Source of the DNA: Cryomorphaceae bacterium
Lineage (GTDB): Bacteria; Bacteroidota; Bacteroidia; Flavobacteriales; Schleiferiaceae
NCBI GenBank assembly: GCA_020832345.1
Contig: JAFIEY010000002.1
Coordinates: 1 to 44,374, forward strand
Direction of reading: 5' to 3'
DNA: 44,374 nt
Shown one piece after another: positions 4,850-44,374 of the stretch. Each line of letters begins with the position of its first letter. The stretch's first letter is position 1. The position numbers and the translations under genes are program-made. The notes beneath the pieces are model-generated. The model was not told the DNA's origin, did no database searches, and was given only the letters and a program-made list of their open reading frames with translations.

Positions 4850-5064
4850 TGAGAAACTCACTAAAAGGTTTAGCTTTTTTCTTTCCGAATTTAATTAACA
4901 GACCCTTCAGCAGTTAGATATGTGCTTTCATCTTTTTGCAAACGTTCGTCCAAAACGATTTTCAAATCTGACGTAAGTTCAATATCGCTGTTGTCCTCTT
5001 CCACAATATATGGTAATAGACCTAGATTTATAGATAGCTTTAATCGAATCCTAAATATCCGTGT
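4839..5064 (-). pseudogene. antitoxin-like remnant with frameshift
   Basis: A minus-strand frame without a start codon reads LGLLPYIVEEDNSDIELTSD, then LKIVLDERLQKDESTYLTAE, and meets a stop at 4891-4893. A shift of frame there continues as LIKFGKKKAKPFSEFLNEL and ends at 4839-4841, overlapping the ATG of the toxin remnant. The acidic helical content and the overlap fit a small addiction-module antitoxin. The exact family is not certain. Confidence 0.35.
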
Positions 5065-5141
5065 TTATTTCCTGTGACTATTTTAAGTGATATTTTGTAT
5101 GCTTGTCAGGTTTTTTGAAATAGAAAGTGCTAACTGCGGAT

Positions 5142-5174
5142 AAAAAAACCGGAGCGATATCACTCCGGTTTTTT
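5142..5174 (-). terminator. rho-independent terminator of queA (possibly bidirectional)
   Basis: CCGGAG and CTCCGG arms with an 8-base loop, flanked by an A-run on the left and a T-run on the right. This gives a strong hairpin with a U tract in both directions, 20 bp downstream of the queA stop. Confidence 0.85.
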
Positions 5175-5194
5175 AAATTAAATATGAAAATGCC

Positions 5195-6256
5195 TTATAG
5201 GATAAGCATGGCATCACCATAACTGAGAAAACGGTACTTTTCTTTGATGGCTTCGTTATACGCTTTTTTCAACAAATGATAATCGGTAAACGCTGCGGTC
5301 ATCATTAGGATGGTGGACTGCGGCGGATGGAAATTGGTCAGCAGGGCATCAGCAATGGTAAAGTCGTGCGGCGGATAGATAAATTTATTCGTCCAGCCGT
5401 CAAACTTTTTCAGCTTGTCCTCGGTCGTGATGGAAGATTCCAATGCCCTCATCGTGGTTGTGCCCACAGAAATTATTTTCTTTTTATTGTCGATGGAACG
5501 ATTGACGATATCTGCTTCTTCTTGTGTGATAATCAATCGCTCAGAATCCATTTTGTGTTTGGAAAGGTCTTCAACTTCAACCGGGCGAAAAGTGCCCAGA
5601 CCCACGTGCAAAGTGATTTCCGCAATATTTAAGCCTTTGATTTCAAATCGCTTGAGCAATTGCTTGCTGAAGTGTAAACCCGAAACCGGTGCAGCTACGG
5701 CACCTTCGTGTTTGGCGAAAATAGTTTGGTAACGATCATCGTCCTCTGCATCGGCTTCCCGATTGAGGTATTTTGGAATTGGGGTTTGCCCAAGACGTTT
5801 GAGTTTTTGGCGAAACTCCTCGTACGAACCGTCGAATAAAAAACGCAATGTTCTGCCGCGTGAGGTCGTGTTGTCGATAACTTCGGCTACGAGCGAATCT
5901 TCGTCTGTGCCAAAAAATAATTTATTGCCAATGCGAATTTTCCTTGCCGGATCAACCAATACATCCCAAAGACGGGTCTCTTTGTTGAGTTCGCGGAGGA
6001 GAAAAACCTCAATACGGGCATTGGTCTTTTCTTTGTAACCGTACATCCGCGCAGGAAATACTTTGGAATTGTTGACGATAAAGCAATCACCTTCTTCAAA
6101 GTAATCCACTAAATCAGTGATCATTTTGTGTTCGAATGTTCCGGTCTTGCGATGCACTACCATCATTCGGGCATCGTCGCGATGCGTTGCCGGACGTTCA
6201 GCTACCAGTTCTTTGGGTAGTTTGTAGCTGAAGTGCGAGAGTTTCATCTTTTTCAT
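5195..6256 (-). CDS. queA: S-adenosylmethionine:tRNA ribosyltransferase-isomerase QueA
   Basis: 353 residues, full family length. QueA transfers the ribosyl part of S-adenosylmethionine to preQ1 at position 34 of certain tRNAs, giving epoxyqueuosine, in the cytoplasm. Family motifs are present throughout: [20 protein letters not shown] near the N-terminus, [35 protein letters not shown] in the middle, [13 protein letters not shown], and [17 protein letters not shown] near the C-terminus. The start at 6256 gives MKKMKLSHF; the Met at 6247 is an alternative. The gene stands alone, with a strong terminator just downstream and a candidate promoter at 6296-6303. Confidence 0.97.
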
Positions 6257-6295
6257 AAAGCTTACGGGCTTTTTTTATTAAGTTTAAACAGCCTG

Positions 6296-6303
6296 CAAAA
6301 TTA
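6296..6303 (-). promoter_or_regulatory. candidate -7 element for queA
   Basis: TAATTTTG on the minus strand, 40 bases upstream of the queA start, matching the Bacteroidota TAnnTTTG element. No clear -33 TTTG was identified. Confidence 0.45.
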
Positions 6304-6432
6304 CGACTTTTTTTCGTCATGTCAAGGGATGAATTTAGGGTTTGTTCGAGGCTGATTTGGGTCGTATTTTAGCGAACCAAAATCAACATTTTTTGTTGTT
6401 AAACTTATTACGAATTTAATTTTTCTATCGCA

Positions 6433-6888
6433 ATGACTCATTTAAAACCCGGAGATAAAGCCCCTAATTTTAAAGGGAAAGATCAAAATGGAAACCCCAT
6501 ATCCCTCAGTGATTTTCAAGGCAAAAAGTTGGTGGTGTATTTTTACCCCAAAGACGATACACCGGGCTGCACGGCCCAGGCTTGTAATTTGCGCGATAAT
6601 TACAAAGCCCTCATGGATTCAGGCTACCAGGTTCTGGGCGTAAGTGCCGACAATGAAAAGAAACACCAAAAGTTTATCGATAAATACGATTTGCCTTTCC
6701 CCCTTATCGCTGATACCGAGCGCGAGGTAATCAATGCTTTTGGCGTGTGGGGCAAAAAGAAGTTTATGGGACGGGAATACGACGGAATCTACCGCGAAAC
6801 TTTTGTAATCAATGGCGAAGGCGTTATCGAACAGGTCATTGAAAAAGTAAAAACCAAAGATCATACGGCGCAAATTCTCGAATCGTAG
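6433..6888 (+). CDS. bcp: thioredoxin-dependent peroxiredoxin, Bcp type
   Basis: 151 residues, the length of the Bcp/PrxQ group. These enzymes reduce hydrogen peroxide and organic peroxides using thioredoxin. The active-site segment FYPKDDTPGCTAQACNLRD carries the peroxidatic cysteine at residue 46 and the resolving cysteine five residues later at 51, the atypical two-cysteine arrangement of this class. The later signatures GVSADNEKKHQKF and YRETFVINGEG are also family-typical. The start ATG at 6433 gives a normal N-terminus (HLKPGDKAPNF). The gene is monocistronic: queA diverges upstream and a palindromic repeat follows 33 bp after the stop. Confidence 0.95.
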   Translation: MTHLKPGDKAPNFKGKDQNGNPISLSDFQGKKLVVYFYPKDDTPGCTAQACNLRDNYKALMDSGYQVLGVSADNEKKHQKFIDKYDLPFPLIADTEREVINAFGVWGKKKFMGREYDGIYRETFVINGEGVIEQVIEKVKTKDHTAQILES

Positions 6889-42955: not shown

Positions 42956-43249
42956 ATGAAAGTATCTACTGCGGAACTTGAAAAAATTGCCCACCTGGCG
43001 CGTATAGAACTCAGCGAAGTTGAGAAGGAAGATATGCTAAAGGATTTCAACAAAATACTGACCTTTGTCGAGAAGGTGCAGGAGTTGGATTTGTCCTCGG
43101 TGGCGCCGATGGAGTATGTGAGCGACCGCGTAGATGCCCTTCGCGATGATGTGCTCGGCAAGGAGAGCAGTCAGCAGGATGCATTGCGCAACGCACCCGA
43201 CCACGACACGGCCTACATCAAGGTGCCCCGTATGGTCAAAAATGAGTGA
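42956..43249 (+). CDS. gatC: aspartyl/glutamyl-tRNA(Asn/Gln) amidotransferase subunit C
   Basis: 97 residues, normal length. GatC is the small belt subunit of GatCAB, which converts mischarged Glu-tRNA(Gln) and Asp-tRNA(Asn). Typical features are LEKIAHLARIELSEVEKED, MLKDFNKILTFVEKVQELD and the Pro/Asp-rich C-terminal tail (DVLGKESSQQDALRNAPDHD, then FIKVPRVV-like YIKVPRMVKNE). The gatA and gatB genes are elsewhere. The last bases overlap the FTHF cyclo-ligase start by 8 nt. Confidence 0.94.
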   Translation: MKVSTAELEKIAHLARIELSEVEKEDMLKDFNKILTFVEKVQELDLSSVAPMEYVSDRVDALRDDVLGKESSQQDALRNAPDHDTAYIKVPRMVKNE

Positions 43250-43826
43250 GGTGGATATATCGCACCACAAAAAACAATTACGCACCATTTTTTTGTCCCG
43301 CCGAAACGACCTTGCTCCGGAGCAAAAGGCGGAAATGGATCGTCGGATATGCGAAGGGATTTGGAAAAAAATCGAGGCATTGCAACCCCGGGTCATTCAC
43401 ACATTTCTACCCATCAATAGTGAGATAAATTTTTATCCTGTGATCAAACGAAGTATAGCAGCAGGCATAACCATCGTTTGTCCACGAGCCCTTCCCAACC
43501 GCAGAATGTCGCATTTGGTATTACGTGATTTGTCAGCCACAACCCCCGGCGTAATGGGCACCATTTATCCTTCGGGTGAAAATGAATATTTGGGAACCTA
43601 CGATTTGATCTTGGTGCCCGGACTGGCCTACGATCAGCGGGGTCATCGCTTGGGTTACGGCGGCGGTTACTACGACGCCTTTCTAAAAAACCATCCGGAT
43701 GCCTTCAAACTCGGACTTTTCTATGCCTTTCAGGCCTGCGATAAACTACCGATAGGGATGCATGATGTTCAGTTGGATGGTGTTGTGACGGAGGTGGGGG
43801 AGAGGGGGTTTACTAGCACAGCGTAA
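43242..43826 (+). CDS. 5-formyltetrahydrofolate cyclo-ligase
   Basis: 194 residues from the ATG at 43242 (MSEVDISHHKKQLRTIFLSR). A longer frame starting at 43134 only reads through gatC in another frame and is not used. The basic N-terminal helix, the middle segment VIHTFLPINSEINFYPVIKR and the C-terminal nucleotide site YDLILVPGLAYDQRGHRLGY followed by GGGYYDAFL are those of this ATP-dependent enzyme, which turns 5-formyl-THF into methenyl-THF. It is coupled to gatC by overlap. Confidence 0.94.
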   Translation: MSEVDISHHKKQLRTIFLSRRNDLAPEQKAEMDRRICEGIWKKIEALQPRVIHTFLPINSEINFYPVIKRSIAAGITIVCPRALPNRRMSHLVLRDLSATTPGVMGTIYPSGENEYLGTYDLILVPGLAYDQRGHRLGYGGGYYDAFLKNHPDAFKLGLFYAFQACDKLPIGMHDVQLDGVVTEVGERGFTSTA

Positions 43827-43828
43827 TT

Positions 43829-44263
43829 TCAAGATTTATTTTTAATGATCTCAGTAAGTTCATCTACCTTTTTGTTAAGATTTTCAATTTTTTCTTCAAG
43901 CGGATTATTATTGTCGCTAATCATGGAATCAACAAAGATGGAATTCACAAGAGAAAGACCGAATATTCCTCCTACAAATAAAATAGTAACAAAATAGATT
44001 CTAATAAAAAACTCCACAAATGGAGAAAACGTATTGTTTTCAATCATTGAGTCTGGAATTTCATACCATCCTTCCACAGTAAAAACTTTAAAAATGTTGT
44101 AAAGGGAGATTAATGGATTTCCAAAGTGTTCACTTGCAATGTTTTTGAAAAGAAACGTAGAGAGGACTGCGATTACAATATTAAATACACCAAAGGCAAA
44201 TAAAATCAGAAGTGAGGATTTTGCAGCTCTGTAAGTAAAATTTACAAAACAACTTGAACAAAA
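43829..44263 (-). pseudogene. voltage-gated-type ion channel pore domain (Ion_trans), 5' part missing
   Basis: The minus-strand frame is open over 144 codons from right after the TAG at 44264-44266 to the stop at 43829, but it has no usual start codon before a GTG at 44077. Order of parts: S5-like helix (SSLLILFAFGVFNIVIAVLS), pore segment with filter-like SLYNIFKVFTVEGWYEIPDS, S6-like helix (IYFVTILFVGGIFGLSLVNS), and a C-terminal coiled coil (PLEEKIENLNKKVDELTEII). This is the pore module of Na/Ca-type channels (compare T-x-E-x-W filters). The voltage-sensor helices S1-S4 are absent at the point where another ORF ends. It is either a disrupted channel or an unusual pore-only one. Confidence 0.6.
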
Positions 44264-44374
44264 CTATGGATAAATTCGATAGTTTAGGTCAGGAATAATT
44301 GGATGGTGAGCAATTCGATTTTTATCCAGTTCTGTTTTGTCTATTCTGATGCCTTTTTGATATTGCTTCAGGTT
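44264..44374 (-). CDS. C-terminal end of another ORF, possibly a transposase (continues past window)
   Basis: From the window edge 36 codons are open in the same frame as the channel remnant, ending with a TAG at 44264-44266. Residues include NLKQYQKGIRIDKTELDKN and IAHHPIIPDLNYRIYP. The pattern YQKGI....H.......NY.I.P is similar to C-termini of ISAzo13-type transposases as I remember them, but the fragment is short. If right, an insertion sequence cut the channel gene. Confidence 0.35.
   Translation of the reverse strand, partial: NLKQYQKGIRIDKTELDKNRIAHHPIIPDLNYRIYP

Follow-up and report, generated by a model that had tools for sequence, protein, structure and literature searches.

Channel Remnant at the Contig End

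The right end of the window, as the whole analysed stretch of 44,374 nucleotides is called here, raises the question of how a reading frame came to encode the pore of an ion channel with neither a voltage sensor nor a start codon. The original prediction proposed either that an insertion sequence (IS) had cut a channel gene or that this is a minimal channel started in an unusual way. The frame lies on the minus strand, a detail added by the present analysis, and is open over 144 codons from 44263 down to 43832, with the stop codon at 43829–43831 and TAG (44264–44266) directly preceding it. Its earliest ATG, GTG or TTG is the GTG at 44077, within the selectivity filter, where the 82-aa ORF of the ORF list begins. 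The Pfam profile PF00520 (Ion_trans) matched the remnant at positions 118–232 of 241 with 25.7 bits (cut-off 25). The S5, TVEGW pore loop and S6 described earlier are present, S1–S4 are absent from this match, and the lack of a voltage sensor and of a start codon had been read correctly.

The channel part proper occupies 43829–44231 on the minus strand, and its alignment with 14 intact relatives begins in the S4–S5 linker; it comprises 133 codons (44230–43832) preceded by a single base of a split codon (44231). It reads as the 3′ portion of a voltage-gated channel gene that has been split, and contains the last residues of the S4–S5 linker, S5, the pore loop with TVEGWYE, S6 and a coiled-coil-like tail. 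The latter agrees with the C-terminal coiled coil expected before, its pattern L-x3-I-x2-L-x3-V-x2-L being heptad-like as judged by eye. The 11 leading codons of the frame (44263–44231) consist of IS DNA, a 3-bp repeat and the one base of the split codon, and therefore the channel part amounts to 133 aa.

The 144-aa remnant had no match in the plasmid collection. On the plus strand, an ORF at 43242–43826, which we take to encode a 5-formyltetrahydrofolate cyclo-ligase-like protein, points at the remnant and stops 2 bases short of its stop codon.

Insertion Sequence

The window is an entire contig of the source assembly (G000:C68) and ends at 44374 inside a repeat, so that the sequence to the right of it is present only on another contig. 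The extreme ends of contigs C247 and C161 carry bases 44232–44370 again with 100% identity, and the segment 44235–44374 is the end of a multi-copy IS. Its terminal inverted repeat (44235–44263) matches the opposite IS end, situated on contig C195, at 22 of 29 positions. Inverted repeats had been expected near 44264; an imperfect repeat does exist, and the IS boundary lies at 44234/44235, not near 44264.

The minus strand of 44264–44374 encodes the C-terminus of a transposase (36 codons and the stop 44264–44266), and the ORF whose stop was said to precede the channel frame is this transposase tail. A mobile element is thus present on the right flank, where it had been proposed to look for one. 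The tail corresponds to positions 275–308 of 308 in PF07592 with E 0.02, below the cut-off, and a 64% identical relative from genome G928 has two segments above the cut-off (53.1 and 38.9 bits versus 26.9). By these sequence comparisons, the IS is probably ISAzo13-like. It resembles the ISAzo13 family (PF07592) probably in the C-terminus of the transposase, as seen via the 64% relative, in its terminal inverted repeats and in a probable short target duplication, but it is known here from its ends alone, and the 36-residue tail itself scores below the cut-off.

The probable 3-bp target-site duplication (44232–44234) reads TAA on the plus strand and TTA in the gene sense, and recurs at the junction on C195. 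TTA also flanks three other IS ends seen, therefore the triplet could instead belong to the IS. Other ends of the element were located at G000:C154:77705-77852, C247:3369-3507 and C161:12908-13046. The ends on C68, C247 and C161 are identical over 139 bp, and a few bases distinguish the C154 end from that on C195. Neither the body of the IS nor a full transposase was found in the source assembly, where the transposase search gave three tails only. At the DNA level, the IS end was found only in the source genome among 99 genomes comprising the source and its relatives. PF07592 gave no match in 196 genomes of the order, nor in the control genomes, so that this negative result carries no information. 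The transposase tail had no match in the plasmid collection.

Missing Half of the Channel Gene

A search of the source genome with the Ion_trans profile gave four places, two of which are complete and have TVGYGD, a potassium-type filter. The segment C195:134–499 on the minus strand corresponds to profile positions 5–124 (S1–S4), complementary to positions 118–232 of the remnant; no further channel halves were found in the source genome by this search. The C195 half reads 129 aa, then a stop at the IS edge, and adjoins the opposite IS end. The S1–S4 portion had been proposed to lie on the far side of an IS, and the place where it was found agrees with this. In its S4 segment, R-I-L-R-V-F-K-F-F-R-F-I-K, every third residue is basic.

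When joined, the two halves match at 50%, over residues 4–256, the one intact channel of G009, a relative of the source from the same family (L056 in the set of loci). Aligned with three intact relatives, they leave exactly one residue missing in between, as would be expected of a 3-bp target duplication. A zero-length duplication was considered and rejected: the joined halves are in frame without any duplication, but the relatives have one extra residue, and a 3-bp duplication fits. The insertion point falls in the S4–S5 linker according to the alignment to 14 intact relatives, with which the junction and the reading frame agree.

It may be concluded that an ordinary six-segment channel gene of CavMr/BacNav type was, almost certainly, split in its S4–S5 linker by an ISAzo13-like IS, as the first of the two original explanations had it. 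The multi-copy IS end with its transposase C-terminus, the S1–S4 half beside the opposite end, the imperfect inverted repeats with TTA at both junctions, the probable duplication and the intact one-gene relatives all point in this direction. The insertion accounts for the absent start codon, the stop ahead of the frame and the loss of the voltage sensor. Since the IS is present in several copies, the assembly was interrupted within it, so that S5, the pore and S6 came to stand at the end of the window contig and S1–S4 at the start of C195; we infer the join C68–IS–C195. Judged by the repetition of 44232–44370 at two other contig ends and by the complementary profile half beside the opposite IS end, the split gene is beyond chance. 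The channel fragment alone is ordinary, a product of an IS-split gene and an assembly break.

Both contigs end in repeats, and no contig of the 260 in the source assembly spans the IS, which might speak for an accident of assembly or binning, with halves derived from different strains or copies that never formed one gene in the source organism. In our opinion, such an accident is very improbable, since complementary halves of one rare subfamily abut opposite ends of the same IS, a second copy of either half was not found in the source genome, and the estimated contamination is low (0.23). Still less probable is the second original explanation, a genuine minimal channel of S5, pore and S6 produced from a non-standard start, by read-through or as a fusion from the preceding ORF. 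The frame is indeed open over its whole length, with an intact filter and S6, but its leading codons come from the IS end, the repeat and the split codon, the preceding ORF encodes the tail of a transposase, the missing S1–S4 are present on C195, and S1–S4 are carried by 24 of the 24 relatives in the tree set. With the insertion thus preferred, the properties of the unbroken gene can be considered.

Properties of the Intact Channel

The intact relatives of the channel are single genes with S1–S6, and those paired with the partner described below have 255–268 aa. By sequence they are voltage-gated channels, and the suggestion that a homologue search might reveal a non-channel family found no confirmation. 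The combination of S1–S4 and S5–P–S6 in one gene, by which a single-domain PF00520 channel is recognised, was found in the pre-insertion gene and not in the split source copy. In a sequence comparison of the G009 channel with solved structures, T-type Ca2+ channels came first with E 3e-28 (summed over repeats), and bacterial entries named 'Ion transport protein' followed from E 6e-16; the same channel had no match in the phage collection. The filter T-x-(E/D)-G-W is present in all 25 channels of the tree set, and position 7 is acidic in 24 of them.

CavMr is a voltage-dependent Ca2+ channel of Meiothermus ruber with the filter TLEGWVD, and in filters of its type, according to the available part of its description, the fourth position is Gly and the seventh is polar or acidic (PMC7041947). 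In TVEGWYE, the source filter, positions 4 and 7 are occupied by Gly and an acidic residue, respectively. As these features match those of CavMr, permeability of the channel to Ca2+ is likely, as far as the filter residues tell. A single domain with S1–S6, the T-x-E-G-W filter and an S4 with basic residues at intervals of three are, within the published text available, common to CavMr, ancestor-like BacNavs and the pre-insertion channel. On the other hand, pairing with a nuclease is not mentioned for CavMr in the available part of its description (PMC7041947), and the source copy is broken.

Partner Protein with a Nuclease Fold

On C195, the ATG of the channel gene overlaps by one base the stop codon of a gene for a 616-aa protein, which is intact in the source genome. 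The Pfam profile Mrr_cat matched the C-terminus of this protein with 16.0 in the source copy, below the cut-off of 21, and with 22.9, above it, in the copy from G009. Searched against the PDB by sequence, the 616-aa family gave nothing meaningful. A structural model was built from 79 of the 81 fetched homologues and reached a mean pLDDT of 90.2. Its residues 431–616 resemble N.BspD6I (Z 14.1, rmsd 3.4, 174 aligned) and FokI (Z 13.5, rmsd 3.2, 150 aligned), and the top Foldseek match of the model was FokI with E 3.6e-4. The residues E468, D498, E512, K514, Q530 and Y534 occur in all 79 rows of the alignment, the motif D-x13-E-x-K (D-ExK) being invariant. The C-terminus of the protein is, by its model, a PD-(D/E)xK nuclease fold of the FokI/BspD6I type.

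The N-terminal 432 residues were folded separately from 44 rows. This part had no Foldseek match at E 0.001 and showed weak winged-helix-like matches, the best with Z 7.3 and all under Z 8. Because these fold matches are weak, DNA binding by the N-terminal part may be offered as a guess from the model. Compared with FokI/BspD6I, type IIS and nicking endonucleases, the protein thus appears to have the cleavage-domain fold in common, and differs in that its N-terminal 430 residues give only such weak matches and its gene is mostly solitary. A type IIG gene lies near the nuclease gene in the source genome.

A viral-collection contig also carries a member of the nuclease family, with 54% identity (L136, IMGVR_UViG_2839188362_000002, locus 5001-6842), as do three Pseudoalteromonas replicons, NZ_CP091443, NZ_CP032091 and NZ_CP133572, with 34–35% identity.

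Distribution of the Channel–Nuclease Pair

Nuclease loci were collected by a pattern scan of GTDB contigs, from which the best 80 of at least 175 relatives were taken and supplemented with one viral contig, the source genome being excluded (n = 81), and channels at these loci were called with the channel profile at E 1e-3. In 16 of 81 loci of this set, the nuclease gene has as its immediate neighbour, on the same strand, a channel gene of the same clade. It stands upstream of the nuclease in 13 (L074, L077, L079, L083, L084, L086, L087, L088, L089, L093, L097, L098 and L117) and downstream in three (L056, L073 and L076). The upstream frames overlap the nuclease by 4–32 nt in 12 of 13 cases and lie 3 nt apart in one, stop codons counted. 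The downstream offsets are −4, +2 and 0, with a stop/start overlap of 4 nt in L056 and of 1 nt in the source genome. L084 is cut by a contig end, and L089 contains a run of N; the split of the L089 channel over two frames was considered as a second disruption and rejected on account of this run. No channel match was found in the other 65 of the 81 loci, 58 of which have at least 1 kb on both sides.

In the nuclease tree, the 13 upstream cases fall within one branch of 19 rows and the downstream ones, the source included, in two other places, which means that the paired cases lack independence. In the tree of the channels, where the source channel was entered with its halves joined by X, 11 upstream and four downstream channels (source included) form one clade (99/97) together with the solitary channel L137 (G530:C27:7960-8727), and the other nine solitary channels fall outside it. 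The genome G530 had no nuclease match at E 1e-5, and no channel was found within the 4-kb locus of the G373 nuclease. When 395 genomes were drawn evenly from the phylum (E 1e-30), the nuclease occurred in two and the channel subfamily in 11, the source being included in both counts. Among 39 channel loci (10 + 29) with flanks of about 1.5 kb, some shorter, the 616-aa protein was found in the G009 locus only.

An intact channel gene with a gene for a nuclease of FokI-type fold is a recurrent two-gene arrangement in some relatives, and the pair is probably a functional unit. No description of such a pair was found in the literature within the open-licence PMC scope.

Defence-Type Gene Neighbourhood

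The source nuclease belongs to a cluster of defence-type genes at G000:C195:529-14568 (L008/L055), which comprises the 616-aa nuclease, a type IIG restriction-modification gene (E 1.4e-289), a large NTPase and a SIR2-like gene. The NTPase matched Pfam AAA above the cut-off, nSTAND and NACHT below it, and PDC-M54A partially. Against PADLOC-DB 2.0.0, the best E for the 616-aa protein of the source was 0.039, which does not rise over noise, and the halves of the source channel, the G009 nuclease and the G009 channel had no match.

The 131 nearest ORFs of the nuclease loci matched 73 PADLOC families at E 1e-10, with DRT, PtuB, PD-T7-3 and LmuA among the matches listed. From this set and from alignment A4, L107 (5′ end cut) and L129 (a near-copy of L118) of the 81 loci were excluded; ORFs of more than 900 aa were left out as well, together with 17 of 148 ORFs, namely 14 channels and three short ones (two at L089, one at L103). 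The 92 ORFs flanking the 16 paired loci matched 48 families at E 1e-20, and DarT, DarG, AbiEii, PDC-S02, PDC-S19 and PDC-S70 were among the matches listed. As a control, 42 ORFs beside other ion channels (E 1e-10) matched 16 families, mainly GajB/UvrD helicase models, as well as RTasHel, PDC-S48, DEDDh, mad3 and caspase; L023, L036 and L037, which had no clear gene call, and also L024 and L042 are not in this set. Since protein counts cannot be read from these scans, their thresholds and designs differ, and the control is small and unmatched, they are only suggestive of a defence-gene neighbourhood of the pair.

Possible Function

RexAB of phage lambda and P. putida causes abortive infection, for which it has been proposed that a DNA-binding sensor opens a channel in the membrane, according to the available part of the source (PMC12894663). 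By functional analogy with what is given there, the pair considered here would likewise consist of two genes, for a DNA-linked soluble protein and a membrane channel; it differs in having a channel from the voltage-gated superfamily and a partner with a nuclease fold. The chance that the pair serves anti-phage defence may be put slightly below even. The nuclease protein would bind or cut invading DNA, and the coupled channel, probably permeable to Ca2+/Na+, might open upon engagement of the partner or upon infection-linked depolarisation. Ion gradients would collapse through the open channel, which would thus add a second layer, an abortive one, of the kind suggested for RexA/RexB. The source genome retains an intact nuclease gene and has lost the channel arm alone.

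Taken as a whole, this reading assumes that the intact pair forms an anti-phage system not described before, recurrent in Bacteroidota and Ignavibacteriota with both gene orders, in which a voltage-gated Ca2+-permeable channel acts as abortive effector or depolarisation sensor coupled to a FokI-type nuclease, and that the window host lost the channel arm to an IS and kept the nuclease; we estimate its probability at about 0.4. Since the nuclease is intact here without the channel and channel-less in 65 of the 81 loci, the data suggest that the channel is neither an antidote of the nuclease nor indispensable to it.

The same 65 loci (within the best 80 of at least 175 relatives and one viral contig), the existence of solitary channels and the PADLOC result, in which neither protein matched a model better than E 0.039, also suit a different explanation. 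The two genes may be neighbours without joint function, or the channel may serve ion/pH homeostasis or another role, being cargo beside a nuclease that acts alone. This is a serious if tentative possibility, set against the fact that the genes overlap or abut, in both gene orders, and that the partner has a FokI-type fold; moreover, defence-type genes adjoin the source copy, and DarT, DarG, AbiEii and PDC models occur near some paired loci.

To our knowledge, little is known about the role of single-domain voltage-gated channels in most bacteria. For one clade, the recurrent link with a restriction-type nuclease offers an answer that can be tested, in that these channels may be immune effectors or sensors. 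If the anti-phage reading is true, the Rex idea of a DNA-associated protein combined with an ion channel would extend to the superfamily of the animal Nav/Cav channels.

In solitary-channel loci of family f52, another neighbour recurs: the ORF adjoining the channel in six of them (L140, L141, L142, L144, L145 and L146) presumably encodes a Sua5/YrdC-type protein.
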